A stretch of 64,000 nucleotides of DNA, from contig NC_083373.1 in assembly GCF_029542785.1 (NCBI RefSeq), forward strand, positions 372,001-436,000, in the 5' to 3' direction. The notes beneath the pieces were generated by a model. The model worked only from the letters and a program-made list of their open reading frames with translations. It was not told where the DNA came from and ran no database searches. Positions 2,638 to 64,000 of the stretch are shown piece after piece; position 1 is the stretch's first letter, and each line of letters opens with the position of its first letter. The translations under genes and the position numbers were made by a program. This stretch comes from Malassezia japonica (taxonomy: Eukaryota; Basidiomycota; Malasseziomycetes; Malasseziales; Malasseziaceae).

Positions 2638-3722
2638 ATGAAGGTCTCGATTCCGGGCCTGCCCAAGACCGCGCCGCTCCTACCGAGCATCACGCAGCCA
2701 GAGCGCGCGGTGCAGCGCATCCAGGAGGTGCTCGAGCATAGCTCGCGCGCACTCGTCGTCACAGGCGCAGGCGTCTCGGTCGACAGCGGAATCAAATCGT
2801 ACCGTGGCGAAAATGGAATGTACCGTACGTTCGCCGTGCTCACCCAGTCAACGAGGGCTATCGCCCGATCTACTACCACGAGTTCGTCCACCGCTGCGGG
2901 CCAGAAGAGGAGAAGCGCCGGCGGTACTGGGCACGCTCGTTCCTCGGCTACCCGCCACTGCGCATCGCGCAGCCGAACGCGGCCCACAAGGCGATTGCCG
3001 CGCTCCAGCAGGCTGGAATCGTCAACCGCCTCATTACCCAGAACGTCGACCGCCTGCACTATGCGGCAGGGCAGATGGAACCGCCACAGTACACGGAGCT
3101 GCACGGCTCCTTGGCCGAGGTGAGATGCATCGGACACGGCACAGGAAAGCCAGACGCTCAGCCGGAATGGTGGACGGCCAGGCGGACCAAGGCGTTTGGC
3201 GACATCGAGCGCTATACCACATCGCACATCCGCGACGATGCGCCGGGGTGCGGCTTTGTCGCGTCGCGCGATGCTCTGCAGGACTACTTTGCGGAACTAA
3301 ACCCGGCATGGCAGGCGTGGGCCGAGCGCCTGGCCAACGAGCCGGACCTCTCGCTGCGCCGCAACCCAGACGGTGACGTACAGCTCGAGGGCGTGGACTA
3401 CAATACATTTGAATACCCATCCTGCCCGTCGTGCGGCGGCCTCCTCAAGCCGGACGTGGTGTTTTTCGGCGAGAGCGTCAAGTCCTGGGTTCGCCAGGCT
3501 ACAGAGGAGAGCGCACAGGAGTGCGACGCGGCACTCATTATCGGAACAACGCTCGCGACACACTCGGCCTATCGGATTGTGAAGCAGATTGTCGCGGCGG
3601 GCAAGCCAGTCGTCCTCCTGAATCGCGGGCCAACACGCGCCGACCCGATCCTTACGGACCGCATCGGACTCGACTGCGCCGAGGTGATGCACGACGTAGC
3701 ACAGCGCATGCTGAGTACCTAA
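2638..3722 (+). CDS. SIRT4-type NAD-dependent protein deacylase (sirtuin, class II)
   Basis: Join 2638-2824, 2848-3722 (353 aa); the ATG at 2638 is chosen because the five-codon upstream extension has no ATG. The intron (2825-2847, 23 nt) interrupts the codon after GENGMY. NAD-binding motif VTGAGVSVDSGIKSYRG, then ITQNVDRLH (catalytic Asn-x-Asp), the active-site His in TELHGSL, the second zinc pair CPSCGG, and LKPDVVFFGESV. The run LNPAW...DGDVQLE...F..PSC resembles the mitochondrial SIRT4 group. Odd: the first zinc ligand pair is split. About 38 extra residues (3134-3250) lie between EVRC and CGFVASRD, where relatives have a CxxC. This is either a lineage insertion or a region I failed to splice. 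Its 3' end is 5 bp from the convergent CEX1 gene. Confidence 0.85.
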
Positions 3723-3727
3723 CTACA

Positions 3728-6144
3728 TTAACTATTGCCTTGGGCGGCTTTACGCTGAGTTAGTAGAGAGACGTACCGCAAGGCGCTCTTCACGCATCCG
3801 CTGGAGCTGCGCCATCTTCTCCTTGGCTGCCGCATTGGTGGTCGACTTGGGCGGCGCAGGAACCGGTGCTGCGGGGGCTGACGGGCGCGGGGTGGGGGCA
3901 GGGGCAGGAGTAGGGCGGGGAGTAGGGGCAGGAGGACGAGGAGCCGCAGCAGGCGCGGCGGGGCGCACCGCAGGGCGCACCGCAGGTGCCGGAGCGGGGC
4001 GCACAGCCGGCGCTGGACGCACGGACGGCGCACTCTTGAAGTTGGGCTGAAGTCCGGCCATAGAAACCTTAGGCTGCGCCTGGAAGGCCTGGGCAAGCGG
4101 CTGTGCCGGTTTCTTTCCGAGACTCATGCTGCGGTCGGTCGTTGACGGCGTGCTGCGTCCGCTAGCGGGCGGCGACACAATCACCGGCGTCGCCGGCGCC
4201 GACATGGTAGGCGTGGGCGGTGCGAGAGGCTCTGGTACCGCAGGTGCAGTCGCCGCCCGCTCGTCGTCCTCGATCTGGGCCATGGCCCAGTCGCTCAGCG
4301 CCGAGGCGGCACTGCCGGCGGTTGCCGACAAGAAAGACGAAAAGCCCGAGCGCGGCTCACTCGCGGCGGCAGCCGACGTGGCCGGCATCGTCGGGCCGCG
4401 CGGCAGCTCGGTCGTGACACTTGACTGTCCTGCCGTGTGCAGCTTGATTTTGTCGAGGTATGCCTGCAAGGTGGCCATAGCCGACTCGCGCACATCACCG
4501 TTCTTGTCGACCAAGCACGGCGACAAGGCAGGCAAGACATGGCGCGCTGACGCTTCCGCATCGAACGAGTCCTGGTTCGAACGGAATGCATCGACACCGG
4601 CAAGGCGCGCGTGCTCATAGTTATCCTTGAGGCTGCGTGCAAATGCAGGGACCAAGACATTGGCGCGTGTTGCCATCGTGAGGTGCGGTGTGAGCTTGCC
4701 GAGCAGCTTGGTCGTCTCGATACGCAACGCCGGCTGGGGATCGACCTGGGTCTTGGCGAGCTGGCGCAGCAGATCGTTGTTCAGCGCCCGGTCACTCAGT
4801 TTCGGCACAAGCAAGGGGATGCTCTGCAAGACCGCGGCACGGACCACCTCGTGGGGGTCCTCGAACCATGACGAGATGGCCGGCCATACACGCCCCGAGA
4901 CTGCGCGTGCATCGAGGTGCTCTGCATAGAGATTCATATGCGTAAGGAGGGCGGCGCGCATCGGCGAGTAAGTCGTGGCAAACGCATCGACGATCGGCGT
5001 GCCGAGTGCCAGCTTCCAGCGTGCGTCCGACAATCCTTCGCCCAGCCGCAGCATCAGTGGAAGCAGGACACGCGTCGAGAGCTCGAGGCCGTCATTAAGC
5101 CCATTTGCAACAGGCTTGCTGCGGAATGCCTCGACCAGCACCGGCAGCACCTTGAACTGCGAAAAGGTCGGCAGGAGCCGCGGCTGTAGTCTCTCGAGCT
5201 CGGCGAGGATCGCCTCCTTCTGCATAGGGTCGGCGACACGGAACTCTTCGACCATCGAGCTCGCACGTACCAGCTCGTTGGTCGTGAGGAACCCGTTGGG
5301 CTTCTGACCGGCCTCGACGAGCTGGGCAGCGGACAGGCGGGCCGTCGGCTCGGCGACGACCATCTGCTTCAGCAGCGGATAGAGCGGCGCAGGCACACGC
5401 CCGGCCGGGAACGCACGCAGGTTGGTGGGAATCTTGTCGTTGCATGCCTCGAGTGCAAGCAGCGCAATCGCATACGAGTCCACGGCATGGATCGGCAGCT
5501 CGGCGATGCGCCCCCAGCCGCCTGCGACCTCGGGCGCTGCAAAATCACGCGCGTTCGGCGGCTGCCCACCATACTGTGCGAGAAAGGTTGCATTGTCAAG
5601 AGACGTCAGCGTTTCAAAGCCGCCCAGGAGCCATTCGCCGGCCGGCGACAGAAAGATACTCGACGCCTGAATATTGCCGTGGATCGCGCGCACCTGCGTG
5701 TGCAGGAACGCAGCAGCACTCGCGACATGGCTGATGCCCCACGCGACCCATGCGGCACTCGCCGCATCGCGCGTGCCCTCGCGCCACGTCTCAAGCACCT
5801 GCGTAAAGGGCGTGACGCGCTCGACAGCCATGTAGACCGACCCCTGCGACTCGGCCATGTCCAGGAATTTGAGCACGTACGGAAACCGCACAGATCGGAG
5901 CTTGCGCACGGCATTCTGCGCCATCGCGACCTGCACCTGCGACGCGCGCGACGGGTCAAACACAAACACGCTCACTGGAAGCTGGTCTTCCTAGGTGAGC
6001 CAAACCACGCACCTTGCGCACGCCATCGTACAGCGTCCATATTGTCTTTCCTGTGAATGATGACACCTCTTCACCGATCGTGATCCCCGGAAGAGGGCCG
6101 CCGCCTTTGGCCAACGCCGAGGAGATCTGGCGGAAGTAGTCCAT
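3728..6144 (-). CDS. CEX1: SCYL1/Cex1-like pseudokinase with HEAT repeats
   Basis: Complement join 3728-3754, 3777-5990, 6013-6144 (790 aa); two 22-nt introns. The first exon (MDYFRQISSAL, 44 codons) completes the kinase-like domain, and the last gives the C-terminus RKAAQGNS. In the family the protein acts in tRNA export and COPI-dependent traffic. The kinase-like domain (about 20-290) is degenerate: IHGNI stands where HRD is expected and GGF where DFG is expected, so it is a pseudokinase. HEAT repeats follow (about 350-570), then a Pro/Ala/Arg-rich low-complexity tail (about 690-750) and a basic coiled end (MAQLQRMREERLARKAAQGN) like the SCYL1 COPI-binding tail. Without the short introns both ends of the protein would be lost. 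Confidence 0.85.
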
Positions 6145-10880: not shown

Positions 10881-12495
10881 ATGAGCGCGACGGAAAGCGG
10901 TCGTGCGATCCTGATCAAGGGTCCGACGCTCAATTCCAAGGTCTTTCTGACCTCTTTACCCGATCGTCTTGACGTATGTCTCTCTACTTACCCAGGATCT
11001 CTTGACCAAAGCGCGAGAGCTTTTTCACGTCCCTGCCGAGTGTACGCCGCAGCTCTATGTGGCATGCCAATCCTCGGTAGGCACGGCGAATAGCGAGCAG
11101 CGTGGTGCGATCCTTCTTCCGGACGCCTTGCCTTTTCTGCGCGACCGCGAGCTGCTGACTCTTCGCTGGGCTCCGACAGACTCCTCGCGGCGCGAGGCGA
11201 ACGCGCGCGTCCAATGGGACCCCAAGCTCCCCGCCCAGGAGCCGATCGGCACGCCCCGTCCCGGCACCATGCCTATTTGGCGTGGCCCCCAGGCGCGTGC
11301 CGCTCATGCTGCGCGTGTGCTGGAGCGCGAGCGCAACCAAGCCACGGAAGAGTGGACGGACCAGCTCCGCAAGCCCCTGCGCTCTGATGCCGCCGTCTTT
11401 AACAAAGCGCGTATGGAGTCGCGTGAACCGATGTCTCCTCCCCCCAGCTCGCCTACGGCCTCGCCTGAACAAGCCGTCCCCGAGCTGAGTCGTGCCGAGG
11501 TACCGCTTTCTCCGACCCCCCACCGTTCGGCGAATGCTACGCTGAAGCCGCTTGTGTGGAAGAATCAAGAAGAGCCTCTGACACCCCCCCGTGGCTCTGC
11601 GTCTCCTGCACTTAGTGACACCCCTCCCAGTCTTTCTGGCTTTGGCGCGTGGTGTGCGCGTCTGAATCCCTTTTCGCGCAACACGCCTCAAAAAGAGCCC
11701 GAGGCACCTGCACCCGCAGCGCCTGTCCGCGGCCCCACCAAGACCGAGACCCGTTCCTTTTATGCGCCGAAAGTGCGCGCGAAGCCGATGCTAGTTCCGG
11801 ATGTGGCCCATGTCCAAGGTCCTGCTGCCTATGACATTATTACCCAAGTCCTTGCTGCGATCCGTGAGCATCCCTGTGCGATGCACTTCCGTGCGCCAAT
11901 GTCGGATGAGCTTCGCAAGTTCAGTGAGCGTCGCGGGCGTGTCACTGATCTTGCTGCGATGGGCGCGCGTGCGGCCAAGCGTGACTATGGCGGTGTGCCC
12001 TTGACGCGCTTTGCTGAAGAGCTTGCGCAGTACCTGGACCACCTTGTTCTTTTCTATGGCGAGCACAGCACGCAGGCTCATGCTGCTACGGGCCTAGGCA
12101 AGTTCGCCGAGACGCTCCTCAAAGAGCTGTCCAAGAAGCCAGTCCGTCGTGACAGCGATGATAAGAAGAAAGAGTCGCTCTCTGTTCCGACCAAGCCCAG
12201 TCCCAGCAAGCCTGCTGTGGTCCAGCTGGAAGGCAAAGAAGTGTCCAAGCCCCCTTCGAGCAAAGACGCGAGCCGCCGTATGGAAGTCAAGGCGGACAAT
12301 GCGACTCTCCCCGCTGCGGACCGTGAGCCGAAAGCCAAGCCCGCATCGGCCACCCCGCCCACCTCCCACGTTCCTTTGGCGTCGGGCGAGACTTCCAAGG
12401 CGGATGCTGCGCCGGCGAAGCGTGCTCCCAAGCGCATTGCCGCGCCCACCGAGCAGCCTGTGGCCAAGCGCACCCGCCGCTCGACGCGCGTTTAG
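10881..12495 (+). CDS. Uncharacterised nuclear-type protein with a possible degenerate bromodomain
   Basis: Join 10881-10973, 10996-12495 (530 aa); one 22-nt intron. I do not recognise the family by name. Residues 1-90 form a compact, hydrophobic-patterned segment (AILIKGPTLNSKVFLTSLPDRLDD...). Residues 140-290 are Ser/Pro-rich. Residues about 305-410 show a bromodomain-like pattern: four predicted helices, HPCAMHF, a DLAAM box, then Y....LTRFAEEL and LDHLVLFYGEHS. The acetyl-lysine-binding Asn and the YY.vI box are not visible. The C-terminus is Lys/Arg-rich and ends KRTRRSTRV, suitable for nuclear import. Function is unknown. The bromodomain reading is inference from pattern, not alignment. 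Confidence 0.7.
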
Positions 12496-19612: not shown

Positions 19613-22436
19613 CTATTGCACGCGGCTCGAATGCGGCTCCACGCGGAAGCGCGCAGGGAAGGGCTTCTCGGGCGTACCTTGGCCGGGCGCATCCAAAAGA
19701 CCCGTCTGCCAGTCTTCGCGGGGGAGCTGCGCCGAAAGATCCCCTAGATCTGTATGCAGAAACGAGTCCATCGAGCTGTCCCCTTCCTCGGCCTCGGGGC
19801 GCGCAAGGAACTGCCGCTGAAAGAGGCCGCGGCGCTTTACCGGCGGACTCTTTCCAGGCGACTTTTGCGAATGCGCACCAGTCGGCGACAGCGGCGATAG
19901 GCACGGTTCGGCGAGCATCGTCGGCGAGACGGGGGGGTAGACGCCTTCGTCCATCGGGGGACTCGCGAGCGCCCGCTTGTCCTCGGGGAGTTTTTCTTCG
20001 GCACGCTTCTCTGCCCGCTTCTCGGGCTCGGGACGCTTCTCGGGCTCGGGACGCTTCTCGGGCTCTGCACGGGGACGCACGAGTTTCGGTGCAAGCGATG
20101 CACGCGGCGCTTTGTCGTTCTTCTCAACCTTGCGCGGCGGCACACTGGGCCGCGGTGCGGCACGCGCAGCGCCAGCCGCCACGTTCGGCCGCACACCCGG
20201 CGCCATGCTGGGCCGCGGCGCACTCGGCGCGACGCTCGGGCGGGGCGCACTCTGCGCAACACTCGGACGCGGCGCCAGCGGGCGTGCCGTGCTCGGACGA
20301 GGCGCGATACTCTTGCGTGGCTCACTTGCTTGCGTTTTTTCCCCGAGATCGAGCGCTGCTCCGATACTCTTGTGCCGCGCCGGCATGCTCGGCCGCAGCG
20401 CACGGCGCCGCGGGCTCACGAGGCGCAGCGCACGGCTCTGGCCCGTGGACGGGCGCGCCTTGCGCCGTGGCGACGGGTTCACCTTTGGCTTGGCACGCGC
20501 CGGCGGCATGCCCCGCACGCTCGTTCCCATGGCGCGCTGCAGCGCAAGATCACTGGCGTGACTTGCGGCACGCAGCCGCTCGACGAGCGCCGCACGCGCC
20601 TCGTCGTCGAACTCGTCGTCGAGCTCGGTGGCAGCCGACTGCAGCGCCTGCGTCGAATGTGCGGCACTGAGCGCAAGGTCGACCATGCGCCCCCCAATCG
20701 ACTGCTGCACGCGCCGCGTCGCAGCGAGGGCGGCGTGCCGTGCCTCGGCGGCGAGGTGCGCCTCGAGGTGCGCGTGTCGTGCAGCGTACAGCGCCGCGCA
20801 TGACGTGTCTGCAGCCACGGCCGACGGGAGTGTGCGCTGCGGCAAGGCATAAACGCTCTCCGGCGGCGGCTGCGTCTGCGGTGTCTGGTCGAGGATCGTC
20901 TGCAGGATTCCGCGATCCTCGTCCGCGCACGTCGCAAGCGCCGTGGTGAGGGCCGAGCGGATCGCGTCCGCGGCGTACGTCGGCGCGGCCTCGGCGGCGG
21001 CGGCGCGCTCCGACTCGGTGGCTGCGTCGGCGGCCGCCTGCAGCTGGCTGGTCGCCTCGGCGAGCTGTGTCTCGCGCTCGGCCTTTTTGCGGCGTTCGGC
21101 CGGCGCGTCTCCGCTTGATGCGATGGCGAGCTTGTCCTTGAGCTCCTGCACCTCTTCGCGCAGCGACGCAATCGCCTGGACGTACTGTGCGACGTGGCGG
21201 TCGATGTGCAGGAGGTTGCGCGTGACCTTGGTCTGGATGTTCTTGGCCTGGTTCGCGTACTTGAGCGTGTTGTGCGTCTCTTCGTAGTGCGCGCTCGACG
21301 GCGACACACACACAATCATCACCGTCTTGCAGTTGCCTCCGAGCGAAAACTTGAGCAGGCGTGTGAGCTTGCTGTTGCGGTAGGGGATGTGCCGTCCTTT
21401 TGTGTTCCTGCTTCCGCCGGTCTGGCACAGTGCATTGATACACGAGCCAAGCGCCAGCAAGGAGCGGTTGATATTTGCACCCTCTTTCATGCGCATCCCG
21501 TGGTTGTTTGTCGCCGACGCACGCTCCGAGCCGGCCAGGTCGATGATGTTGAGCGACGCACTGCACATCTCCTCGACCGTGCCGGCCGTGCGTGGCTTGC
21601 GGGTGACATTCAGCTGCAGCACTGCATGCGAGCGGCTGCTGACCGCGTTGGCCATCGTCGGGCTCTGCGTGCGCCGCTTATTTCCTTCGGTAATCATCTC
21701 CAGGACCTGCTCTGGGGACTCGGGGATGTGCTCCGTGATGCCTACGACCGAGATCTTGCTCGCAGCATCCTCACGCAGAGCGAGGCCAGGGCCCGGCGGT
21801 GTTGGTGTCGGCGACAGCAGGTCGCGGATCGTCTCGTTGTAGATCTCCAGGTAGGACAGGCGCACATTCGTCTCGTATTGGTCCTTTTCGGCCTCGATGC
21901 GCTCGTACAGGCCGCGCATCGTCAAAAAGATCAGCCCTGGGTCCTCCGACGTGCCGCTGATGGTGTGTGTTTTTCCGCAGCCCGTCGCCTGCGTCAGCTA
22001 AAATACGTACACCGTATGCGAATACACTCGCATTGAATCCACTCAGGATCCCAGGCAGCATGCGCTCGACCGTGCCGCGATACACCTCCTGCTGCGTCGT
22101 CGGAGGGGGAAAGACACGGTCGAAAGCGTAGCGCACGTCGCGTGCGCGCCGCCCGTTGCCGTGGAACTGCATATGCATTGCCGGCCGCGCACCACGCATG
22201 TTCGCAGAGGGGTCCGCAGGGTCAAACACGAGCACCTTGTCGTCGACCGGCGACAGAATGTTGCGGATGTAGTTGGTGCGCATCGCCGTGATGGCGTTGG
22301 GGGCCTTGCTCGGCGAGCCGGCCAAACCACCATCCCCCTGGAACGGTTGGGAGGTGTCCACTGGCGCAAGCAGCGACACCTCCTTCGCGTTCAGGGGGCG
22401 GATGCGCACCGCTACCTGAATCGACGACTCGGTCAT
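19613..22436 (-). CDS. KIP3: Kinesin-8-like plus-end motor (Kip3/Klp5-6 type)
   Basis: Complement join 19613-21988, 22011-22436 (933 aa). N-terminal motor domain: QVAVRIRPLN, DDKVLVFDP (a kinesin-8 trait), P-loop ATGCGKTHTISGT, SSRSHAVLQLNV (switch I), IDLAGSERA (switch II) and the neck region (to about residue 370). A coiled-coil stretch follows, then a basic, Pro/Ser/Arg-rich tail with repeated EKRPEPEKR-type units. The 22-nt intron (21989-22010) falls right before the P-loop; without splicing the ATP site is frameshifted. Kinesin-8 motors depolymerise or slow microtubule plus ends. Subfamily assignment is from the VLVFDP and TISGT motifs only. Confidence 0.85.
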
Positions 22437-22485: not shown

Positions 22486-23343
22486 CTAACGCACCAGCGG
22501 CACGCCGGGCGGCACGCGCGCCGCGTAGCGGGCGTACTCCTGGCCAAAAAAGCGGTGGAGGAGCCGCTCCTCGTCTGGGTCAGCCTCGCGACGTACTCCG
22601 AATGCGCTCAGAAAAGAAGCGCGAGAGGGCCATAATAAAGAGAACCGTAGCCAATGGGTTGCACAGCAAAATCTGCGTGCCGACCGCCCAGTAAAAGAAG
22701 CCAGCATAGGACGGATGCCGCGCGAGGCTGTGTGAGCCGAGGGACGTACGCATAAACTCCGCGTGTGACCAACTCGTGGTCGTCGCGCTTCGCATAGGCC
22801 ACTGCGTGGCTAAAGTTGGTCGACGCGTGGATCATGGCGAGCGACCGGAGGAACTGGCCGCAGACGAGGAGCAGGAGGCCAAAAACTTGCACACCCACGA
22901 GGCTCTTCCATCCAGGGGCAAGTGACGCCTCGACAAGGAACTCGGCCAGACCAAATATATGCGCCGCAATGTATTCAAAGCCATTCTGCAGCAAAAAGGC
23001 TGGGTCAGCACAGGCACTTACAGTCCGCCTGAAGATGGGTGGGGTTCCAGTACGCCGTCACCAGGAACTCGAGAAGGTGGAACAGGGTCCAGGCAACCAG
23101 GTACGCGTGCAGCGCAGGTGCAAAAATGGCCGACGCTGGCTTCGCCCCCGAGAACCATGATGAAAAAAGCGCAAGTGCACGCGGCGCGCACAGACCCATA
23201 CCGACGCCAAGCAGGGCGGCAGTCAGCGCTACGTTGCCGGCTGCAGGCGAAAATCGCACAGGGAATACAACAGGGTGCGTCACACGGAACACAGCATCGA
23301 TACGCGCGAGCAGGATGTGGAATGCTCCGTTCATGGAGTGCAT
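22486..23343 (-). CDS. STE14: Protein-S-isoprenylcysteine O-methyltransferase (ICMT/Ste14)
   Basis: Complement join 22486-22574, 22597-22727, 22750-22999, 23022-23343 (263 aa); three introns, each exactly 22 nt and in three different phases. ER membrane enzyme that methylates farnesyl/geranylgeranyl-cysteine of CaaX proteins (Ras, Rho, mating pheromone). Family core: HELVTRGVYALARHPSYAGFFYWAVGTQ, then NPLATVLF and NEERLLHRFFGQEYARY. Several membrane segments precede it. Every splice restores this core across a frame change, so this gene is among the best proofs of the 22-nt introns. The start at 23343 (MHSMNG) is the first suitable ATG after the promoter. Confidence 0.92.
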
Positions 23344-34047: not shown

Positions 34048-34383
34048 ATGAGCTCTGTCCTGTCGAAAGCGTTTCCCGCGGTGGTGAAGGAGATCCGTCT
34101 GCACCTGTCGCCTACGGGCACGGGTAGCGCGGGTGCTCGGTAGGTATATTTTCGTGTCGGCTTACGCCAGGAAATTCCTCGAGACGAACTACAAGACGAT
34201 CAAGCAAAACAACCCGAACCTCCCGTTCCTCGTCCGCGAGGCCGAGAAGACGCCGGCGCGCCTTATTATGCGCATGGGTACGTTTCGAGGCTAACGGCAG
34301 AGCGCGGCGCTGAGCGCGACGTGGATATCAACGCCCTGGAGCCGCGTGCGATCGAGAAAAAGATCGCCGAGCTGCTCAAGTAA
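34048..34383 (+). CDS. NDUFA2: NADH:ubiquinone oxidoreductase subunit NDUFA2 (B8, thioredoxin-like)
   Basis: Join 34048-34139, 34171-34277, 34301-34383 (93 aa); introns of 31 and 23 nt. Accessory subunit of mitochondrial complex I, small thioredoxin-like fold. Family sequence after splicing: KEIRLHLSPTGTGSAGARKFLETNY, then NPNLPFLVREAEKTPARLIMRMERGAERDVDIN. The first intron has GTAGGT as donor. Length is typical (about 90-100). It shows that this organism keeps complex I. Confidence 0.92.
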
Positions 34384-46356: not shown

Positions 46357-47002
46357 ATGCGCATCGTTCGCACGCGCGCGGCGCTGCTGTCGGACTATGA
46401 GGTGCTGCAGCTTCTCCGCGACGCGGAGGAAAAGCAGCGTGCCGCAGGCCGTAGTGATGACGATGCGGAAGCGTGGATGAAGAATGTCCCGCCCAACGTG
46501 CGGACGATCCAGTTCGAGGTACGTCGTGTTGCTCACCAGACCATTGCCTCGCTCTCGCAGGCGCACCGCCCCTGTGCGCACCAGACGCCCGAGCAGATTA
46601 CGCGCTTTTTGGATGCGCTCGAAGCAAAAGGGTACAGCCCGCCCGACCACAAGATCCTGCAAGGCGCGCCGGGCCTGACCAAGGCCGAGCGCCTGCAGCT
46701 CGTGAACCACGCGCCGGCGACGGTCGTCGAGCTGCACACGGTACGTATCTCTACTTATGCAGCTTGTCGAGGAGCTGGGCCAGCGCATGAGCGACGAGCA
46801 GATCGACGATATCCTGCAGTGCGTCGTGGCGCATTTGCCCGCGCCCCAAGCCGCCGAGGCGCTCGAGGTCGCCGCAGCGCCTGTCGCCGACGAGGCGCCG
46901 ACGACCTATGCTGCGGATGAGCACGCGATGGACGAAGATGCATTCCCAGAGGATCATTTTGAACACGAGGCGCCCGAAGCGCCTGCCGACGAAGACGACT
47001 AA
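46357..47002 (+). CDS. RPC17: RNA polymerase III subunit Rpc17/RPC9
   Basis: Join 46357-46518, 46540-46740, 46763-47002 (200 aa); introns of 21 and 22 nt. Forms the Pol III stalk with Rpc25. RPB4-like fold: ALLSDYEVLQLLRDAE at the start, CAHQTPEQITRFLDALEAKGYSPPDHKIL in the middle, then LTKAERLQLVNHAPATVVELHTLVEELGQRM. The tail is acidic (HAMDEDAFPEDHFEHE), as in the family. The 21-nt intron keeps frame: if retained it adds VRRVAHQ in a helix. I call it an intron because its sequence matches the spliced class. The upstream neighbour BOR1 is divergent; the stop is 4 bp from the convergent RSM18. Confidence 0.9.
46519..46539 (+). other. 21-nt in-frame intron in RPC17
   Basis: Starts GTACGT and ends GCTCACCAG. 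It has no stop in frame, so retention would add seven residues. It differs at one position from the 21-nt intron at 49874-49894. Confidence 0.7.
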
Positions 47003-47673: not shown

Positions 47674-49427
47674 ATGCACTACGGGCTGTACCTCGTCACC
47701 GGCCGGGCGCTCCTGCCGGCGGGCAAGGACTATCTCGAGAGTCTCGACGAGACGCTCCGAGATGGGCACGTATCGGTTGTGCAGATTCGGTAGGTGCACG
47801 CTTTAACCCAGCGAAAAACACACGCCCTACGACGAGTTTCTCGAGATCGCTCAGCAGTCGCTGGCCGTGTGCGACAAGGTACGGACGCGCACTAACGCAG
47901 TACAATGTCACAATGATCATCAACGACAGCATCGAAGTCGCCGAAAAGCTCCCGGAACGTGTCGGGCTGCACCTCGGCCAGGATGACGAGAAAATGGCGC
48001 TCGCGCGCGAACGCCTCGGGCCACGCCGCATCCTCGGGCTGTCGGTACACACGCCGGCGCAGGCGCGCGCAGCGCTCGACAGCGAGGCGGACTATGTGGG
48101 CGTCGGTCCGGTCTGGCCGACAGAGTCCAAGGCGGGCATTGACAAGGAGGACGTCCTGATGCTGCACGGCGCACGCGACGTCGTCGCCGCCCTCGTTCGT
48201 AGCCCAGAGGACGCGCCCAAGGGGGGGCGCATGCGCCTGCCTTGCGTCCTGATCGGCGGCCTCAACATGCGCACGGCGACGCGCACGCTCGTCGGCGCCT
48301 CGTCGCCGGTGAACGCGCCGGACGGCATGGCAGTCATCTCGGCGATCGTCGCGCGCCGCGATCCGGGCCGTGCGGCGGCGGAGCTCTTTGCGGCCCTCGA
48401 GGCGTTTCGTGCGGTTCAGGCATGCCGCGCGTCGCACGCCGCGACCGCGCCGCTGCAGTCGGCACCGCTTGCTGCGCCCTTTGACTCGGCGCACGCTCTG
48501 CTCGACGCCACCGCGGCACTCTTCACCGCGCACCACACGGTATACGACGGCGAGACCCACACCGAGGACGACTCCAAGGTTACTGTTCCCCGCCCGCTCG
48601 TGCAGACGATCACGTCGCATGTCTCGTCGTACTTTAGTGCGAACGTCGCGCTTGCGTTCTCTGCAAGCCCGATCATGAGCCACGAGGCGGAGGAGGCCGA
48701 GGCGCTGAGCGCCGCGACGCGTGCGCTCGTGCTCAACATCGGCACGATCAACGCCGAGGCGCGCAAGGGTATGGCTGTTGCCGGCCCGGCGGCAAACGAG
48801 CACGGGACGCCGGTCGTTCTCGACCCGGTCGGCGTCGGCGCGACGCCGTTCCGTTTCGAAACGGTGCAGACGCTCCTGAACCAGACGCAGGTGTCGCTCA
48901 TCAAGGGCAACGCCGGCGAGATTGCCGCGCTCGCCGGCTCGAGCGAAGCGCAGTCGCAGGGCGTCGATAGTGTAGGCGCCCTCGCGACGCCCGCTCAGCT
49001 CGCCGCGCAGCTCGCGATGCAGGAAGGTGCACTCGTCTTGCTCACCGGCGCAACCGACTACCTGACGAACGGCGAGATCGTCATCGAGGCGCGGTGCGGC
49101 ACGCCCCTCCTGGGCCGTGCGACTGCGACGGGATGCGCGCTCGGCGTAATGGTCGCTGCCGGCCTCGCATCGGCTACACACGCCTACGATATCAAGCTGG
49201 GGTCCGCCGGCGTGCAGCGCATGACGCCCCCACGCACGCACCCCAAGCTCCTGGTCGGTGCGCTGATGGGTGTGCTCGCCTACACGATCGCCGCCGAGCG
49301 CGCCGCCGCGCTGCCGAGCGTGCGTGGCCCCGGCACCTTTCTTCCCGCCCTGCTCGACTCGATCGCATCGCTCAAGCCCTCTGTACTGCACGAGTATGCT
49401 GACCGCGTCTCGGTCTATGCGCTCTGA
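47674..49427 (+). CDS. THI6: Bifunctional thiamine-phosphate synthase / hydroxyethylthiazole kinase (Thi6)
   Basis: Join 47674-47789, 47812-47878, 47901-49427 (569 aa); two 22-nt introns. N-terminal half joins HMP-PP and HET-P to thiamine phosphate: GLYLVTGR, VSVVQIREKHTPYDEFL, NVTMIINDSIEVA, GLHLGQDD, VGVGPVWPTESK, CVLIGGLN. C-terminal half phosphorylates hydroxyethylthiazole: LNIGTINAEARKGMAVAG, VVLDPVGVGATPFR, LIKGNAGEIAALAG, ATGCALGVMVAAGLA. Both splices fall within conserved TPS motifs and restore them. The first intron is the only 22-mer with TTAAC in place of CTNAC. The order TPS-kinase is that of fungal Thi6. Confidence 0.95.
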
Positions 49428-49481: not shown

Positions 49482-50098
49482 ATGGACCCCGACTACTGGA
49501 GTGTCGAGGCGATCCTCGCCGAGGGCCAGCGGCTCCCGTGCGTGTTCCAAGTGGATGTTCCCGGCCTTGGGCACCTCGAAGAGTCAGGTGAAGTGGATGT
49601 ATGTGCAAAATCTAACGCAGATGCACAAAAACACGCGCATCGAGCTCGTGTACTGGATGGCGCATCTGCTGGCCGTGTAGTACGTGTTTTGGCTTACCCA
49701 GCGATATTGTCACGATCCAGCAGCCCCGTGCATACGGAGCACGCGTACGTTCAGCACTCGAGGCCTCTGCATCGTCCGTGCAGCTGCGTTCGCTCTTGCC
49801 GTACTGGTACGCGCTCGCGGTCCGCCTGGCGCGTCTGCTCGCGTCCGAAGACCTGCAAGCGCTCCTGTCCAAAGTACGTCGTCTTGCTCACCAGACCTAT
49901 ATCGGCCGCCTTGCGCGGATCTACGAGCTGGCGATCCTCCTGTCGCCCGGCGGCGACGGCCGCGTGTCGGGCGACGCGTCGCTGTCGATGGAGATGCAAA
50001 ACTTCCTACAAGGCCTCGACGAGAGCGAGGCGCTCCTGCTGCAGGCCGGGCAAGTGTCTACGCGCACGATGCAAGAGTACCTGACCGGGAGTGACTAG
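49482..50098 (+). CDS. PSF3: GINS complex subunit Psf3
   Basis: Join 49482-49598, 49621-49679, 49702-49873, 49895-50098 (183 aa); introns of 22, 22 and 21 nt. Subunit of GINS, part of the CMG replicative helicase. N-terminal MDPDYWSVEAILAEGQRLPCVFQVDVPGLGHLE matches the Psf3 B domain; then TRIELVYWMAHLLAVYDIVTIQQPRAYG and RIYELAILL. The second intron has two donors three bases apart (GTAGTACGT); I used the inner GTACGT, which gives a 22-nt intron and one extra Tyr. The third intron, if retained, adds VRRLAHQ in frame. The stop is 7 bp from the convergent SEC10. Confidence 0.88.
49874..49894 (+). other. 21-nt in-frame intron in PSF3
   Basis: Starts GTACGTCGT and ends GCTCACCAG; no stop in frame. 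Nearly identical to the 21-nt intron of RPC17. Confidence 0.7.
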
Positions 50099-53168: not shown

Positions 53169-53207
53169 GGTAGAAGGGCCCGAGCTGACTAAAGTTGTTT
53201 TTTCGTT

Positions 53208-55609: not shown

Positions 55610-57126
55610 CTAGCTCTCTGCTACGGCCGGCACACGTTCTGCGCCATACACGCGCTCTGCACACCGCAGGCACTCCCATCCGCCCTGGTCCTGCAGATCG
55701 TCGTCGGTCGACTCGGACATGAGCTTTTCGGCGATGCAATAGTAGCAGTAAATGCACCCGTTCCCCTTTTCGGCGCACGGCAGCGTCTGGTACGGCGTCG
55801 TCGCGAGCGCGTCGAGATACTTGATCCCGTTTGGCGACGCGGCCAAGAGGCTCGGCCGGCTCGTCTCCTGCGGCTGCACGCCCTGTGCACGACGTGCGGC
55901 GCGGCGCTCGGCGAGCTTCGCTGCACGCACGGCCGCGCGCTGTGCGGCGGCGCTCGACTCGGCCGGCTCCTCCTCGCGGTCCTTTTCGCGGTTGCGGCGG
56001 CGCGCGACGAGGCCCTTGCTGGGGTGCAGTGGGTCGACACTTGGGATCGCGACGTGCGGCGGCGGCGGCGGCGGCGGCGGGGCCTGCGCGCGCACGTCGA
56101 TGTCAACGCCTGCGGCCTTCTCGAGGCGCTCAAAGCAGATCGCACAGCACTCTTCCGGGAGGTTGTAGTAGCGGCCATATGCCGGACGGTCGCGGCGTCC
56201 GCCGAGGCGTACGCGCCCCGCCTTTTCGTCGTGTTCAAGGCCGATGCGCTTCGAGATACCCTGCGGGAGCGTGCCGTGCAGCGCGGCAAGCACCGTGGGG
56301 TGCGTCGGAATGCGCGCGAGCCTCCGGAGCAGGCGCTGTGGCTTGACGAGCGGCAGCAAAAAGAGGAGGAATTCCTGTGTGAGCCACGCGACGTACCGTG
56401 AATGCATTCCAGACCAGCTGCCGATTCAGGAACTCGAACGAGACGTTGCGGTTCAACGCGCGGTTCGCGTACGTGAGGCGCATGCCGAGAATGCGGTCGG
56501 CGATCGTGCGGTACTTGCCGTTCCACAGGAAAAAGCCAAAGTTGAGCAGCCCCAGCATGTTCCACAGGCGCTGCCCCTGCTCCGCAAGTGACCACGCGAG
56601 GAATTCGGGCGAGTCGCTCGGCGCGTCGGCGTACGAGCGGTCGCTCATCCACGCCTTGCTTTTCGTGTATGCGTACGGGAGGATGATGGTCAGAATAGGG
56701 TACATCCCCAGCTGGAACCAGCGCAGCGGCGCATCGCGCGCGGTCGATTGCACTGTGTGAGTCGTGCGACGTACGCCCCGAAGTATGCGCCCACTCGTTC
56801 CGGTACTTGAGGTTCTGGAGCATGGCACCGTACGACGCGCTCCGGTCATAGATACTAAACTTGTACAGTGCCAGCTTCAGCAAGAGGTAGATCTCTGCCG
56901 AGTGGCGTGTCGCGGCCGTCGGCGAGACATTCCGCAGCGCCGCCTTGACCGGCTCGGCGAGCAGGTCGGTCAGCTCCTGGTCCAAGAGGTCCGCGTCCAG
57001 CTGGCCCACGCGCTGCACACGCAGCACCGGTGACGGAAAGTGCGACAGGCGCCCCCGAATCTGCTTGATCTGCGGCCGCGCGCGGTCGTACGCCGCCTCG
57101 TAAAACGCCCGCTCGTCCCCACGCAT
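55610..57126 (-). CDS. PEX2: Peroxisomal RING ubiquitin ligase Pex2
   Basis: Complement join 55610-56374, 56397-56752, 56775-57126 (490 aa); two 22-nt introns. RING-family E3 in the peroxisomal membrane that ubiquitinates Pex5 for recycling. N-terminal Pex2/12 domain with membrane helices (LGMYPILTIILPYAY, LLNFGFFLWNGKY). The RING is split by a long insertion: CAICFERLEKA... (about 345), then CAEKGNGCIYCYYCIAEKL and WECLRC near the end. The insertion (about 360-430) is Arg/Ala/Glu-rich with a Pro8 run. The first splice completes a Leu codon between HTSG and QSTARD; the second joins NAFT to EFLLFLLPL. Confidence 0.9.
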
Positions 57127-57161
57127 CGTCGCGAGAGCGAGGATCGGGCGATCGGGCTACG

Positions 57162-57805
<644 letters not shown>

Positions 57806-59304
57806 CTACGCAGGCGGAAAAGGGAGCACCGGCGGCGCGCCGTACGGCACGACCGGCGGCGCGTGCACCGAGTGGATCCAGTCGTGGGTACGTGCATAGT
57901 TCGGCGGCGGCGCACGCATCGCGGCCATGTCCGCCTCAAACGCGAGCGCCTGGTCATCCTCGTTGCCGTCGTCGCTCAGCTCGTCGCTGAACGGCTGGGT
58001 ATGCAAGTCGCGCATCCGCTGCGTGATGCGCTCGTCGGGGTCGAGGTCGTCGTCCGGCTCGTCGTCGTCCAGGGCAGGGTTGAACGAAGTACGCGGCGTC
58101 GCCTGCATCTGCACACTCGGCGCAAAGGGCATCGACCGCAGGTTATCAATGATACGCGTCCGCAGACCATCGAGGTACGCGGGCGTGTTGAGGTTGTCCA
58201 TGCCGGTCATGGGCACGTCGAGCTTGTACTCGGGCCCAAAGTACTGGATGTACTCGTTAAAAGGCAGGTCCGCCGCAAGCTCCTCGCCGAGGAGCAGGCC
58301 CGTCTCGTAGGTCCATGTCCGTGCGACGTTGCGCACCGTGTAGCCTCCGCCGCCGAGGCAGATGAGCGGCACGTTGAACGAGCGCACAAACTCGACGCAG
58401 TCCGCGTGGCCGCGCATACTCAAATTGAAGCAGCCGAGCTTGTCGCCCGCGAGCGAGTCGGCGCCGCACTGCAGCACGACGGCCCCGGGGCGGTACCAGT
58501 CCATAATGTGCTGGATCACCGGGCGGAAGATGGCGCCAAAGGTCGTTGCGTCGATCCCGTCGCGCAGTGGCACATTGACCGCGTATGCCTTGCCCCGCTT
58601 GATGCCGATGTCGCGCACGTCGCCCGTGCCGGGGAAAAAGTCGCCAAACTTGTGGAAGGACGCGGTCATGACGCGATCGGTCGAGTAGAACGCCTCCTCG
58701 ACGCCGTCGCCGTGGTGCACATCAATATCAATATAGAGCACACGGAGGTGCGTGCGCAGCAGCTCGAGGATCGCGAGCACAATGTCGTTCGTGTAGCAAA
58801 ACCCACTTGCCTCGCGCTTCTTGGCGTGGTGCAGGCCGCCGGACCAGTTGATCGCGACATCGGCGAGGCCCGTATTCAGACGATTCGCCGCCGAGATCGA
58901 GCCGCCGCATGAGATCGTGCAGAACTCGTACAGCCCGTCAAACGCGGGGCAGTCCTCGCCGATGAGGAAACGCGTGCCGTCGCCCGTCAGCTCCTGGACC
59001 GTCTCGGGGCTGACGCGGCTCAGAAAGTCAATGTACTCGTCGGTATGGAACTTGGTCATTTGCTCGCGCGTCGCACGGGGAGGGCGCTGCGTCAGCGGGG
59101 CAACGTACCAGGATCTGCATCTTCTTGTCCAGCCCATAGTTCACAATCAGGTTGTGCGCCATGCGCATGCGGTGCGGCTTCATCGGGTGACCAAAGCCGT
59201 ACGAGTAATTGCCGACATCATCTGCGTAAGCCAGTCCACGTACTGTCGTAGTAGTAGGCCACCTTGCTGGCCGGCGAGCGAAACACCGGCGGCGGCTCCA
59301 TCAT
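57806..59304 (-). CDS. RPD3: Class I histone deacetylase Rpd3
   Basis: Complement join 57806-59086, 59109-59221, 59244-59304 (484 aa); two 22-nt introns. Zinc deacetylase of Sin3-type corepressors. Spliced N-terminus: [27 protein letters not shown]. The catalytic centre follows: [56 protein letters not shown] and [16 protein letters not shown]. This wording is Rpd3/HDAC1-like rather than Hos2-like. The C-terminal tail (about 375-484) is acidic and Pro-rich. The introns fall at DN|DVGNY and IL|RPPRAT, both restoring the family sequence. Confidence 0.95.
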
Positions 59305-59362: not shown

Positions 59363-62300
59363 ATGCCGCGAGGAACGCGCCGCCGGGCGCCGGACGAGGA
59401 CGCGTCGCGGAAGCGCGCGCGCACCGGCGAGGACGAAGAGCTTTTTGACGATGTGAGTGAGGAGGAAATCGAGAGCGACGCGTCGTCCGACGAGTACGAG
59501 CCGGACGAGGCGCCACAGCCCGAGGAGGGCGAAGAGGTGGAAATCGAGCAGGAGGGCTTTACGCGCCTGATCAATGCGTTTACCAACGAGCCCAGCGGGC
59601 GCAGCGAGCGCACAAAGAACTCGTGGAATCAGTCGATGGAAGCGGAGATGGAGTCGTTTCACCACGAGCTCAGAGACGTCAACGGGTACGCGCGCAAACA
59701 CAAGGCGACGCGCATCCGCGAGCAGGCGCTATCTCCCGAAGTCAAGGCGCTCCTTGCACAGGCCAACATTGCGTACGTCGAGGCGAACCTCCCGGCGGCG
59801 ATCCGCCAGCTGGAGGAGGTGATCCGCATCGAACCGACTGTCAAGGGCGCTTGGTACACCCTCGGCATGTGCTTTGAAGAGATGGGCGAGGAGGAGAAAT
59901 CGATCCAGTGCCGCATCGTCGGCGCGCACCTCACAAGCAACGCGAGCGACGAGTGGAAGTCGCTCGCACGCCGCAGCAGGGAACGCGGCCTGTTCCAGCA
60001 GTCGATCTATTGCTTGCAGCAGGCGATCAAGAAAAACCGAAACGACCTCGACGCGCTGTGGGACCAGGCCGTGCTGCTCAAGGACTCGGGACGCCAGCGC
60101 GCCGCTGTCGAGGCATTCCAGGCGATCCTCAAGATTCAGCCGTACGACGCCGAGGTACTCTGCGAGCTGATTCCGCTACTCGTGTCGCTCGGCGAGTACG
60201 ACGTCGGAGTCGGCATCCTCGAGGGGATGCGCCGCGCAAGTATGCACGGGGGGAGCTCGGACCCGAACCTCGATCCGGCACTGCAAGAGCACGCGCCGCC
60301 GCCGGACGTTGCTTTTTCCTTGAACGAGCTCGTGACGCTCGCCGACCTGCTTCTCCTGCTCCGGCGGCCGCTCCAGGTGATCCTCGTGATCAAGCAGACG
60401 ATCCGCTGGCTGCGTGGCGAGGCACGCGAGGACCAACCGGAGGATGCAGAGCACGACCTCGAACTCGACGACAGCGCGCAGCCACTCGATCGCGAAGTGC
60501 GCCTGCGCCTCGGCAAGGCGCGCTTCATGCTCAAGGACTACGACGAGGGCAAGCGCCACTTTTCCCTCCTCGCCGACGAGGCAGAGCCGGGCGAACATCC
60601 GATGCTCTTTCTCGAGATGGCCGACTGCCTATTTGAACACCAGCAATACAGCAACGCCCTCGACTGGTACCGCACACTGGCCGACGAGGCGCTAGTCGAC
60701 GATGTCCAGCTGTACGTCCACATGGGCATCTGCTTCCAGCAGCTCGATCGGCCCGCCGAGGCCGCGCAGGTCTACGAATCCGTGCTCGATGCGAATCCGG
60801 ACCACTTTGACGTAAAGCTCAGCCTTGCAGAGGTGTGCGAAGAGCTGGGGCTGCGCGACAAGGCGCTGCGGCTCGTCAACGAGGTCCTCGTGGCGCGCAA
60901 CGAGCTGCGTGGCTCGAATGCGGACCCCCTTGCGCCGCCGCTCCTGCCAAACATGGACGAAGAGCAAGGGCCTTCGCTCTCGTTCTTCAACGAGGACGGC
61001 GCCGCACAGCCTGCGCCGAGCGGCTCGTCGCGCGTCTCGCGCTCGGGCCTGTCGTACCCCGAGCGCCAGCGCCTCGAGCAGCAGCGTGAGGAAGAGACGC
61101 GCCTGGCATGGGTACAGCTCTCTGCGCTCGAGCCCCAGGTGTTTGTCGACGGGTTCTGGCAGCACGACTTTGTGTTCCTTGATGGGCCCGTTGACGCGCC
61201 GGACGAGCCGCGTACGTCGTCAGGCGAAGTGCGCAAACGCTTCGACGCTACACGCCAGTGGATGCAGGTCGCTGGGCGCCTCGTCGACTCGTTCCGGTCC
61301 ATGTCGCTCCTCTTCCCCAAAGAGCGCTATACCAAGTACCGCGGTGTCGTACGCCCACGCCGCAACCGCCGCTCTAAGGCGTCAGACCTCGATAGCCATG
61401 CCGAGGCACTCTTGTCGCGCCTGCGAGACCATCTCGTGGACGAGGCGTCGCCCGAGGCTGCCGAGCTCGCGCCCGAGCAGACCTCGTTCCGCACGATCGA
61501 CTTTGATGACTGGGTCGCGCTCTTTATGAAGGTATGTTTTGTTTACTGATACAGTACGCCGTCGGCCTTGCCAAGCTCGGCGGTGAAGAAGAGGCGATCC
61601 ACGACATGTTTCGCCATATTATGGTCTCGAATACCGTGTGGCCCTCGGAAGAACGCAAAATGGCGCTGCATCTCTGTTGGCTCGGTACGTGTTCTCTCTG
61701 ATGTAGCCTGCGCCATCTACGCGCGCGACTCTGCGCGGGTGTTTGACATTGCGCGGTGGTTCCCGACGCACTACCAGTTCCACAACGAGCCGCTGCGCCT
61801 CATTTCGTCGATTGCCAACGGCCTCGGCTTTTACGGTGTGGATGCATTCGTGAGCGCGACCAACACCAAGCAGTACCAGCGGCGGATGCGCACGCAGGAG
61901 GCCATCGTGACTGGGCGCCCGGCCAAGGTCAATCCCCGCACCGGACGCTGGACCACGGTCGGCGCCGAGGACGACGAGGCGGACGAGACAATCGACGGCG
62001 ACGAGCCGCGGCTTGGCAGTACGAATGCCCAACAAGTGCCGACCAAGTCGTCGCCCATCAGCGAAATGTTCTACGGCTACCTCATGCTGTGCGCTAGCAG
62101 CTATCAGCCGGCGATGGGTACGTCGAGCGACTCACACAGGCTATCTTCTCCGTGCATTAGCACTCCAGCCCAACGATCCCCTCTTGTGCCTCCTGTGCAG
62201 TGTCGCGTGCTTCAGCCGCGCGACGAACCGCCAGGTGGATAACCGCAACCACACCATCGTGCAAGGTCTCGCGATCCTCACGCAGTACGCCGACCTGCGG

Positions 62301-62553: not shown

Positions 62554-63452
62554 ATGCATTGGTCGAGGGCCGTGCTGCTGATCGCGGCGCTCGCGCAGGC
62601 CGTGCTGGCCGATAGCGAGACGTACACGTTGCTGCACCGTGCGCAAAAAGTACTGGATAGTGGAATGCAGACGTACTCGGCGTGGCAGCCGCGTGCGCTG
62701 ATTCGCGTGCCGACGACGGCGGCCGGCGGCGACGGTCTCCCTCTCCAGGAGGGCATCACGACCGAGACCAACTTCCCTGACCCGGACACGGACGCGTACT
62801 ACCAGCTGCTGGCAGTCAGGGGCGATGCGCGGTCATTTTCGCACGACGAGTGGCAGAAAAAGGTCGCGGATCTCGACGGTTTCCTCGCGTTTGTGAAGCT
62901 CGTATGTATTCTAGCTCATCCAGTGTCAACTGCGGACGGCTTCCGATGCGCCGCTTGAGGATATTGTGCAGCTGCACCTGTCAAAGCGCCCGCTCGGGCC
63001 CGGCGAGGCGGGCACGCCGCCGCGTGTCGTTGGCCTGTCGTATGCGATCCAGCCCCAGGTCCCGTACGACGACAATGCGTGCCCGGTGTTTGGCACCGGC
63101 GTAGCGACGCACCATTCCGACACCTTTTCGACGTCGGTCGAGATTATGGTGCCCGAGACGCCCGAGGTGTACGTCCCCTTTCTGACGCAGCCCCCTCCGC
63201 CTGGCCGAAGAACCGATCGACGAGACGACCGAAGAAGGCAAAGCCAAGGCCAAGGCCAAAAAGGCCGACGAGCCCTTTGATCCGATCGCGTTCGTCCGCA
63301 AGTACTGGCTGTATATCCTCCCGATTGTCATCCTAATGGCGATCCCTGTCGGCGAAGAGGTCGGTGAGCCCGCGCCACAGAGCGACCGCCCTGCACCGGG
63401 CCGCGTCGCGGCTGGGCCGGGCAAGGGCCCTGCGCGTGCGCCGCGCAAGTAG
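62554..63452 (+). CDS. EMC10: ER membrane protein complex subunit 10 (EMC10)
   Basis: Join 62554-62901, 62924-63168, 63191-63452 (284 aa); two 22-nt introns. Signal peptide MHWSRAVLLIAALAQAVLA, then a luminal beta-rich domain (YTLLHRAQKVL, PVFGTGVATHHSDTFSTSVEIMVPETPEV). A hydrophilic Lys/Ala/Glu stretch leads to a membrane segment (YWLYILPIVILMAIPV), followed by a short Pro/Gly/Arg-rich tail. This layout is that of fungal EMC10, an accessory subunit of the insertase for membrane proteins. The call is mainly from layout and the YWLYILP segment. Confidence 0.72.
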
Positions 63453-63517
63453 TCGTTCCCCTAGTGTACTCTACGCACACGATCTCTGCTGAGTCAGCAC
63501 ACTTTTTTTAGGCGACC

Positions 63518-64000
63518 ATGAGCCGGCCGGAGCATCAGGCGCCGCCGGAGATCTACTATGGCGACACCGAGGCGCGGAAATACACGGCAAAGTACGTACA
63601 GCTTCTCACACAGCACACGCAACCAAGATATCCAGGCCGAAATGGCGCTGCGTGCGATCGAGCTCATGGCGCTGCCGCCGCATCGGCACCCTGCCCTGAT
63701 TCTCGACATTGGGTGCGGCTCGGGCCTCTCTGGCGAGATTTTGACCGAGATGGGCCACGAGTGGATTGGATACGACATCAGTCCCAGCATGCTGAGCGTG
63801 GGCCTTGAGCGCGACGTCGAGGGCGATATGATTCTGTCGGACGCAGGGCACGGCTGCATGTTTCGTGCCGGCAGTTTCGACGGCGCGATCTCCATTTCGG
63901 TGCTACAGTGGCTGTGCAATGCAGACACGTCGTACAACTCGCCCGGCGCGCGTCTGAGCACATTCTTCACGACACTGTATGCGTCGCTGACGCGCGGCGC
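63518..64000 (+). CDS. BUD23: 18S rRNA m7G methyltransferase Bud23, N-terminal part
   Basis: Join 63518-63591, 63614-beyond 64000; one 22-nt intron. SAM-dependent enzyme that methylates 18S rRNA (with Trm112) during 40S maturation. Spliced N-terminus MSRPEHQAPPEIYYGDTEAR, then YTANTRNQDIQAEMALRAIEL. SAM motif I is LILDIGCGSGLSGEIL, followed by GYDISPSMLSVG, GDMILSDAGHG and the family mark FDGAISISVLQWLCNAD. The gene runs off the right edge about 155 codons in. Confidence 0.93.

Follow-up and report, generated by a model that had tools for sequence, protein, structure and literature searches.

Malassezia japonica very probably carries U2-type spliceosomal introns of which a large share have the smallest size tolerated by its spliceosome. 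The class spans the genome: its candidate introns number in the thousands and share a single, near-minimal length of 22 nt. Scanning of the 8.43 Mb genome with the pattern GTRNGT-N7-CTNAY-N2-AG gave 3144 matches, versus 15 for the backward pattern. The same scan gave only 4 matches (control 7) when the branch A was placed one base closer to the donor (A16), and 396 (control 7) when it was placed one base farther away (A18). Because of these counts the lower limit at 17 nt is abrupt: the donor-to-branch distance stops sharply there, with its mode on that edge. A pattern scan detects strong-motif introns only, and these figures therefore underestimate introns that are longer or have weak motifs.

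The layout of the 22-mers comprises GTRNGT at positions 1–6, a seven-base spacer, CTNAY with A at position 17, two bases, and AG at positions 21–22. In 264 kb this exact geometry occurred 94 times, whereas reversing the sequence left 0 and shuffling it 0.2; together with the backward pattern, these controls ruled out chance or composition as the source of the 22-mers. With A17 held, tails of 5, 6 and 4 nt were found in 94, 8 and 3 cases, respectively, and with the 5-nt tail held there were zero cases at A15 and zero at A16. When each column was freed in turn in the same set, A17 was kept in 94/95 matches, T15 in 94/96 and C14 in 94/97. The spacer had a GC content of 61%, its positions 7–13 carried 0.03–0.68 bit, and all 94 sequences were distinct. 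Copies of introner-type mobile introns are similar over their full length, and the 22-mers, with 94/94 different sequences and so little spacer information, were not assigned to that type. The GT-AG ends, the donor and the branch motif are those of U2-type introns. The U12-type consensus has the donor RTATCCTT and the branch TTCCTTAAC; neither the GTRNGT donors nor the CTNAY branches, whose flanks are unconstrained, corresponded to it.

The class was also recovered without motif information. Among the 146 introns called by a gene finder supplied with neither branch nor length information, 43 measured 22 nt and 42 of these had A17; this length accounted for about half (43/84) of the introns up to 40 nt. 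A scan by coding potential alone, with a third-order model and a lower threshold (a fifth-order model at high threshold gave zero hits), yielded 35 GT-AG pairs 22 apart, compared with a mean of 6.3 and a maximum of 11 for ten control dinucleotide pairs. The motif was absent in 13 of these 35 matches, a number close to the background seen with the control pairs. In the 264 kb a 60-nt frame test assigned 78 of the 94 motif 22-mers to excision, 13 to retention and 3 to neither. All 43 motif 22-mers with both flanks well-scoring fitted excision, compared with 2/17 of the GTRNGT-AG 22-mers that lacked the branch motif. None of the 16 motif 22-mers that misfitted excision scored well on both flanks; some motif matches may be unspliced or alternative.

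The window, a 64-kb stretch of contig NC_083373.1, contained 27 strict 22-mers, 15 on the plus and 12 on the minus strand (Table 1). With the introns at 57671 (donor GTACGC) and 47790 (branch TTAAC), these made up the 29 introns of 22 nt that an earlier note on this DNA had counted; its three 21-mers (46519, 49874 and 57623) and three 23-mers (2825, 34278 and 61532) were likewise recovered. Its total of 48 introns was not reproduced, motif-aided gene models giving 37, of which 21 were of 22 nt. The description of CT at positions 14–15, A at 17 and C or T at 18, with THI6 intron 1 as the exception, was borne out, CT being present in 28/29 and A17 with C/T18 in 29/29.

Table 1. Predicted introns and related 22-nt motifs of the window (window coordinates; TFC4 and THI6 are names taken from the earlier note)
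Feature	Coordinates	Strand	Evidence
23-nt intron	2825..2847	+	motif; frame fits excision; absent from gene model
22-nt intron	10974..10995	+	motif, gene model, frame
22-nt candidate	33918..33939	+	motif; frame indicates retention, downstream score negative
23-nt intron	34278..34300	+	motif, frame
22-nt intron	34807..34828	+	motif, gene model, frame
22-nt intron, UPF0598/DUF4505 gene	37109..37130	+	gene model, inside Pfam match, frame
22-nt intron, UPF0598/DUF4505 gene	37171..37192	+	gene model, inside Pfam match, frame
22-nt intron, UPF0598/DUF4505 gene	37499..37520	+	gene model, frame
21-nt intron, RPB4-family gene, A17, 4-nt tail	46519..46539	+	gene model, Pfam, frame
22-nt intron, RPB4-family gene	46741..46762	+	gene model, Pfam, frame
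22-nt intron, branch TTAAC, THI6 intron 1	47790..47811	+	frame
22-nt intron	49599..49620	+	motif, frame
22-nt intron	49680..49701	+	motif, frame
21-nt intron, A17, 4-nt tail	49874..49894	+	motif, frame
22-nt intron, magnesium-dependent phosphatase (MDP1) gene	57508..57529	+	gene model, frame; junction between two aligned stretches
21-nt intron, MDP1 gene	57623..57643	+	ungapped alignment at junction; frame test fails (9-residue exon next)
22-nt intron, donor GTACGC, MDP1 gene	57671..57692	+	alignment, frame
23-nt intron, presumed TFC4 gene	61532..61554	+	gene model, frame
22-nt intron, presumed TFC4 gene	61685..61706	+	gene model, frame
22-nt intron, presumed TFC4 gene	62118..62139	+	gene model, frame
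22-nt intron, EMC10-like gene	62902..62923	+	gene model, frame
22-nt intron, EMC10-like gene	63169..63190	+	gene model, inside Pfam match, frame
22-nt intron	63592..63613	+	motif, frame
22-nt intron 1, RPD3 histone deacetylase gene	59222..59243	-	ungapped alignment to Clr6, frame
22-nt intron 2, RPD3	59087..59108	-	ungapped alignment to Clr6, frame
22-nt intron 1, PEX2	56753..56774	-	Pfam profile, frame
22-nt intron 2, PEX2	56375..56396	-	Pfam profile, frame
22-nt candidate	36791..36812	-	motif, frame fits; absent from gene model
22-nt motif near gene 3' end	31428..31449	-	frame against excision; gene model takes later AG (47 nt)
22-nt intron 1, STE14/ICMT	23000..23021	-	ungapped alignment, frame
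22-nt intron 2, STE14/ICMT	22728..22749	-	ungapped alignment, frame
22-nt intron 3, STE14/ICMT	22575..22596	-	ungapped alignment, frame
22-nt intron, presumed kinesin gene	21989..22010	-	gene model, frame (low flank scores)
22-nt intron, presumed SCY1-like kinase gene	5991..6012	-	gene model, frame
22-nt motif at gene 3' end	3755..3776	-	frame test fails; gene model takes later AG (54 nt)

In agreement with the claim that the 22-mers are real introns, 26 of the 29 restored the frame on excision (chance 1/3; p = 4.5e-10); two indicated retention (33918 and 31449) and one neither (3776), and the downstream coding score was negative in all three. The 23-mers fitted excision in 3/3 cases and the 21-mers in 2/3, although for a 21-mer excision and retention keep the identical frame. 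Pfam matches were obtained for 8/8 proteins searched, drawn from 15 intron-containing models. Family sequence was restored by excision of the predicted introns, as had been claimed, in STE14, RPD3, PEX2 and the UPF0598 gene: three proteins read across their junctions aligned to solved relatives, ungapped at 2/2 junctions for RPD3 (to Clr6), 3/3 for STE14 and 2/3 for MDP1; the PEX2 profile 1–208 fell on residues 49–256 with no net gap; and the first two UPF0598 introns lay inside the Pfam-matched stretch. The genome-wide scan, the branch-free gene finder and the junction homology in the genes searched thus support the proposal of miniature U2-type introns that lack a polypyrimidine tract and have a putative lariat loop of 17 nt followed by a 5-nt branch-to-AG tail, and we infer from the sequence that the 22-mers are spliced with A17 as the branch nucleotide. 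A plasmid search gave zero matches, Rfam returned none on the window at the gathering score, and a scan for stray TFC4 copies in prokaryote contigs found none.

A genome search found canonical U6 (ACAGAGA) and U2 (GUAGUA) snRNAs and detected genes for SLU7, PRP18 and SF1 and a U2AF-large-like gene. In yeast, SLU7 is dispensable when the branch-AG distance is short. The loss of SLU7 and PRP18, expected from this and from Stentor, was ruled out, both genes being present. No U6 change compensating C at donor position +4 was found, U6 being canonical.

A new observation, made post hoc, is that G is largely avoided at position +9 of the 22-mers. G was present there in 136/3144 of the 22-nt matches genome-wide and in 0/94 of the 22-mers in the 264 kb, and in 21/100 of the 23-nt matches listed (the first 100 of 396). 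U6 pairing as the cause of this rule fits position 9 but fails at positions 7 and 8. An avoidance of G that becomes much weaker with one extra base is consistent with a strained linker.

A more far-reaching reading, about as likely as not, is that 22 nt represents a mechanical floor for a fungal spliceosome with its usual step-two factors in place. The donor helix and the U2-branch helix would then approach each other no further than 17 nt, counted from the first base to the branch A; most short introns would have drifted onto or beside this floor, and there a base-specific contact of the linker at +9 would disfavour G and fade with one more nucleotide. In the main explanation, U1 and then U6 would pair with the donor and the GUAGUA of U2 with approximately positions 13–18, leaving roughly six linker bases between the pairings as the shortest span that the machine can bridge. 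Step two would use the AG five bases beyond the branch A in the absence of a polypyrimidine tract, and deletion pressure in a compact genome may drive introns down to the 17-nt wall.

It is possible, but rather unlikely, that the introns are real and that 22 nt results from length selection or is simply the short-intron mode, the wall being the mere end of a distribution and no mechanical limit. An optimum can centre a length distribution, since in Paramecium bursaria splicing is reported to be better for introns of 23–26 nt than for those on either side of this range (PMC12862383), and Stentor is described as coping with a branch A as near to the donor as position 10 (PMC9505925). An optimum predicts a two-sided peak, however, whereas the genome-wide count falls from 3144 to background within one base and only about eightfold over the first base on the other side; nor would an arbitrary optimum predict that the +9 restriction of the 22-mers should be much weaker in introns one base longer. 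That the branch nucleotide is other than A17, CTNAY being an extended 3' splice-site motif, is very unlikely. Position 16 is indeed unconstrained in the 94 motif 22-mers (A24 C30 G30 T10) despite the U2 pairing expected there, but A17 is the sole invariant A besides those of donor and acceptor, CTNAY matches the branch consensus with which U2 pairs, U2 being canonical, and in introns of 23–40 nt it stays 5–8 nt before AG in 34/38 cases while the donor distance varies. Finally, that the 22-mers are unspliced, as chance motifs, sequencing errors or segments skipped in translation, is hardly credible: 13/94 matches appear retained by frame, but the excess over the backward pattern, the recovery of reading frame and family homology when the 22-mers are cut out exactly, the U2-type ends and the spliceosomal RNAs and proteins encoded in the genome all stand against it.

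Very short Malassezia introns are already in print, as are uniform tiny introns and close branch-AG spacing elsewhere (Yarrowia, Trichomonas, Giardia, Stentor). For M. restricta a mean of 37.2 and a median of 30 nt are given, with an annotators' minimum intron of 15, and for M. globosa mean lengths of 76–79 nt; in the portions of these reports considered, very short introns are noted for M. restricta and relatives, but neither a class fixed at 22 nt nor a branch geometry or a wall is described (PMC9241646, PMC6473144, PMC4634964, PMC7426719). The introns of Stentor coeruleus, of 15–16 nt with 8173/8806 (93%) of 15 nt, share one dominant length, a fixed branch A position and a 5-nt tail (PMC9505925). 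Stentor, however, is a ciliate with the branch A at position 10, AU-rich introns, a weak branch consensus and a dominance of 93%, in contrast to the fungal 22 nt, A17, 61% GC spacer and share of about half; Slu7 and Prp18, present here, are listed there as not found (PMC9505925). Type B introns of Trichomonas vaginalis are likewise uniformly short (about 25 nt, minimum 23) with a branch motif near AG, but number 24, with a divergent donor and CTAA farther from AG, against approximately 3100 here at 22 nt (PMC12316389). A fixed short branch-AG distance lacking a polypyrimidine tract is also described for Yarrowia lipolytica, Trichomonas and Giardia, in Yarrowia with two bases between branch motif and AG as here; in the account of those systems the 3' end alone is fixed, whereas here the donor-to-branch distance is fixed also, in thousands of copies (PMC2483917). 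In Encephalitozoon cuniculi, a relative of fungi, 22-nt introns with strict motifs occur, but among a total of 37 introns of 22–76 nt and with a reduced spliceosome (PMC3629993). Paramecium likewise has many introns of 20-odd nt (median 24–25), but these are spread broadly, in P. bursaria over 15–100 nt, with no single fixed length in the part of the report considered (PMC12862383). No description of a 22-nt class bounded by such a wall was found in the literature searched, most subscription papers lying outside its coverage.

For human test introns, about 46 nt is reported as the shortest length from donor to branch that is still productive (PMC11291888). A fungus retaining SLU7, PRP18 and SF1 appears to operate at 17 nt, with a one-base cliff beneath and in thousands of natural replicates, so that what sets the minimum intron becomes directly testable. 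The 22-nt class offers a route to measuring how small an intron a spliceosome can process, and clean material for spliceosome structures on a minimal substrate. The usual minimum intron lengths in annotation will break many multi-exon genes of M. japonica. In the gene finder output, a 67-nt intron joining STE14 and the neighbouring gene, which we take to encode a kinesin, was false, and the model was split before the homology search.

The scan of the whole genome (8,433,779 bases, 9 contigs) for the strict 22-nt intron motif, GTRNGT-N7-CTNAY-N2-AG, in which the putative branch A occupies position 17 (A17), showed 3144 copies versus 15 for the backward pattern, so that the 22-nt class proposed for the window in an earlier note was found genome-wide, such counts detecting strong-motif introns only. 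In 264 kb examined (61.8% GC) the arrangement of a GTRNGT donor, A17 and a tail of 5 nt (branch A to the AG end) occurred 94 times; it was absent from the reversed 264 kb and had a mean of 0.2 in Markov shuffles. For M. japonica, 62.35% GC and nine predicted centromeres are given in PMC7025860, and an 8.3-Mb assembly in PMC4634964.

Two tests independent of the motif were performed. In a coding-only scan for GT-AG lengths of 10 to 60, which required the frame to be lost with the segment kept and regained once it was taken out, 35 GT-AG pairs 22 nt apart were found versus a mean of 6.3 (maximum 11) for ten control dinucleotide pairs, and no other length in this range was comparably prominent; the full motif was present in 22 of these pairs and absent from 13. 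A gene finder supplied only with the donor consensus, every AG 12 to 200 nt downstream being scored flat, predicted 146 introns in 98 genes. Among its 84 introns of up to 40 nt, 43 were 22 nt long (42 with A17), and just three, all without the branch motif, were shorter than 22 nt; its 62 introns above 40 nt are noisy, the majority having no branch motif close to the AG. When the 94 motif 22-mers were judged from their 60-nt coding flanks, excision was favoured in 78, retention in 13 and neither in three. With both flanks scoring well, excision fitted 43/43 motif 22-mers versus 2/17 22-mers with GTRNGT and AG ends but no branch motif, and 68/540 of any GT-AG pair 22 apart.

Within the window, the motif search together with one donor and one branch variant, both counted among the 22-mers, gave the same tally as had been listed from the sequence: 29 introns of 22 nt, three of 21 nt and three of 23 nt. 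The claim that these introns are real agreed by frame with excision for 26/29 22-mers, 3/3 23-mers and 2/3 21-mers, excision and retention of a 21-mer leaving the identical frame; for the rest it did not. Since the 21-mers keep A17 while their tail is cut to 4 nt, the donor-to-branch distance is the fixed quantity. Restoration of family sequence across the splices, also claimed previously, was borne out for RPD3, gapless versus fission yeast Clr6 over both junctions (residues 13-385 on 6-378), for STE14, ungapped through all three junctions (76-258 on 93-275), and for PEX2, where the Pfam profile (1-208 on residues 49-256) includes both junctions. The magnesium-dependent phosphatase showed no gap at junctions two (a 21-nt intron) and three, the first lying between two aligned stretches. 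The respective family was above the Pfam cut-off in all eight proteins searched, a sample of the 15 intron-containing gene models.

Column counts on the 94 22-mers, with one position at a time left free, showed GT at 1-2 and 5-6, A at position 3 in 90/94, and at +4 C in 72/94 and A in only 2. The spacer 7-13 (61% GC) is weakly constrained and is followed by CT at 14-15, a free position 16, A17 (94/95), C or T at 18, rarely T at 19, C or T at 20, and AG. In introns of 23-40 nt the branch A lies 5-8 nt before the AG in 34/38, the extra length being mainly on the donor side.

The donor-to-branch distribution goes from background level to the mode in a single one-base step and then drops about eightfold over the next: genome-wide, a branch A at 16 was found in 4 copies (7 in the control) and at 18 in 396 (7 in the control). 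U2 would pair with about positions 13-18 and U1/U6 with 1-6, and therefore some six linker bases would remain. The abrupt lower limit at A17 would correspond to the shortest linker that these helices can share, and we think that it reflects such a minimum. Alternatively, 22 nt may be an evolved length optimum with no mechanical limit; both the one-sided cliff and a constraint at +9 specific to the 22-nt class favour a limit.

This constraint was noticed post hoc, the genome count being partly independent. G at +9 was found in 0/94 22-mers versus 21/100 of the 23-nt class (p 3.6e-7), and G at +8 in 49/94 versus 25/100 (p 1e-4), the 23-nt class being represented by the first 100 listed of 396. 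Genome-wide, +9 G was present in 136/3144 22-mers (p 5e-9 against the same 21/100), and at other GTRNGT sites in 265/867. Pairing with U6 was considered as the cause: the U6 base facing +9 in a would-be helix is G, which agrees with C, T, A, G as the order of the bases; positions +7 and +8, however, are not explained by pairing. We therefore tentatively take the rule to reflect a contact made by a taut linker. By eye, the listed introns with G at +9 often have G at +7, which suggests a coupled alternative register. An origin of the 22-mers as a family of copied elements was ruled out, since all 94 sequences are distinct.

The genome contains canonical U6 (ACAGAGA) and U2 (GUAGUA), SLU7 (E 2e-91), PRP18 in two pieces (E 2e-18 and 1e-8) and the helix-hairpin domain of SF1. 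A U2AF-large-like gene is also present; its match (E 4e-66) stayed below the curated cut-off in a search blind to introns. METTL16 is linked with A at donor +4. This link does not show in the 22-mers, where +4 is mostly C despite the canonical U6 and a METTL16-family match, whose identity is only loosely assigned, the same family also matching 5/14 prokaryote controls. Stentor introns are 15 nt long with the same 5-nt tail, and Slu7 and Prp18, found here, are listed as not found in Stentor in PMC9505925. As both factors are present alongside the 22-nt introns, very small introns would not require their loss, provided that the 22-mers are spliced as proposed.

Very short introns are stated for Malassezia (PMC7426719); for M. 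restricta, a median of 30 nt (PMC9241646) and an annotation minimum set to 15 (PMC6473144) are given. Fixed branch-AG spacing in other organisms (PMC2483917), and outside Malassezia uniform classes of 15 nt (PMC9505925) and about 25 nt (PMC12316389) and single 22-nt introns (PMC3629993), are likewise known. A search of open-licence literature showed neither a fixed 22-nt class as large as the present one nor the 17-nt limit or the +9 rule; the length peak may be in print elsewhere.

The nearest named relatives of the Sec10 protein, all from Malassezia, are those of M. psittaci (72% identity) and M. vespertilionis (70%), two further proteins being nearer (81% and 79%); the source is probably M. 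japonica or a close relative. Its gene is listed with other features of the window below.

Positions and strands of individual features in the window
Feature	Position	Strand	Observation
Maltose-acetyltransferase-like gene	9782-10541	-	Gene model with five introns of 30-46 nt, none of 22 nt, unlike its neighbours
Large membrane-protein ORF	23518-25995	+	Adjacent to and, by eye, like the next, as after tandem duplication
Large membrane-protein ORF	26408-29125	+	
ORF, presumably the two-domain thiamine gene THI6 (name also in the earlier note)	47661-49427	+	
First intron of this ORF	47790	+	Branch variant; sole TTAAC branch among the 29 22-mers
Sec10 gene	50106-53261	-	
22-nt intron	57671		Donor variant
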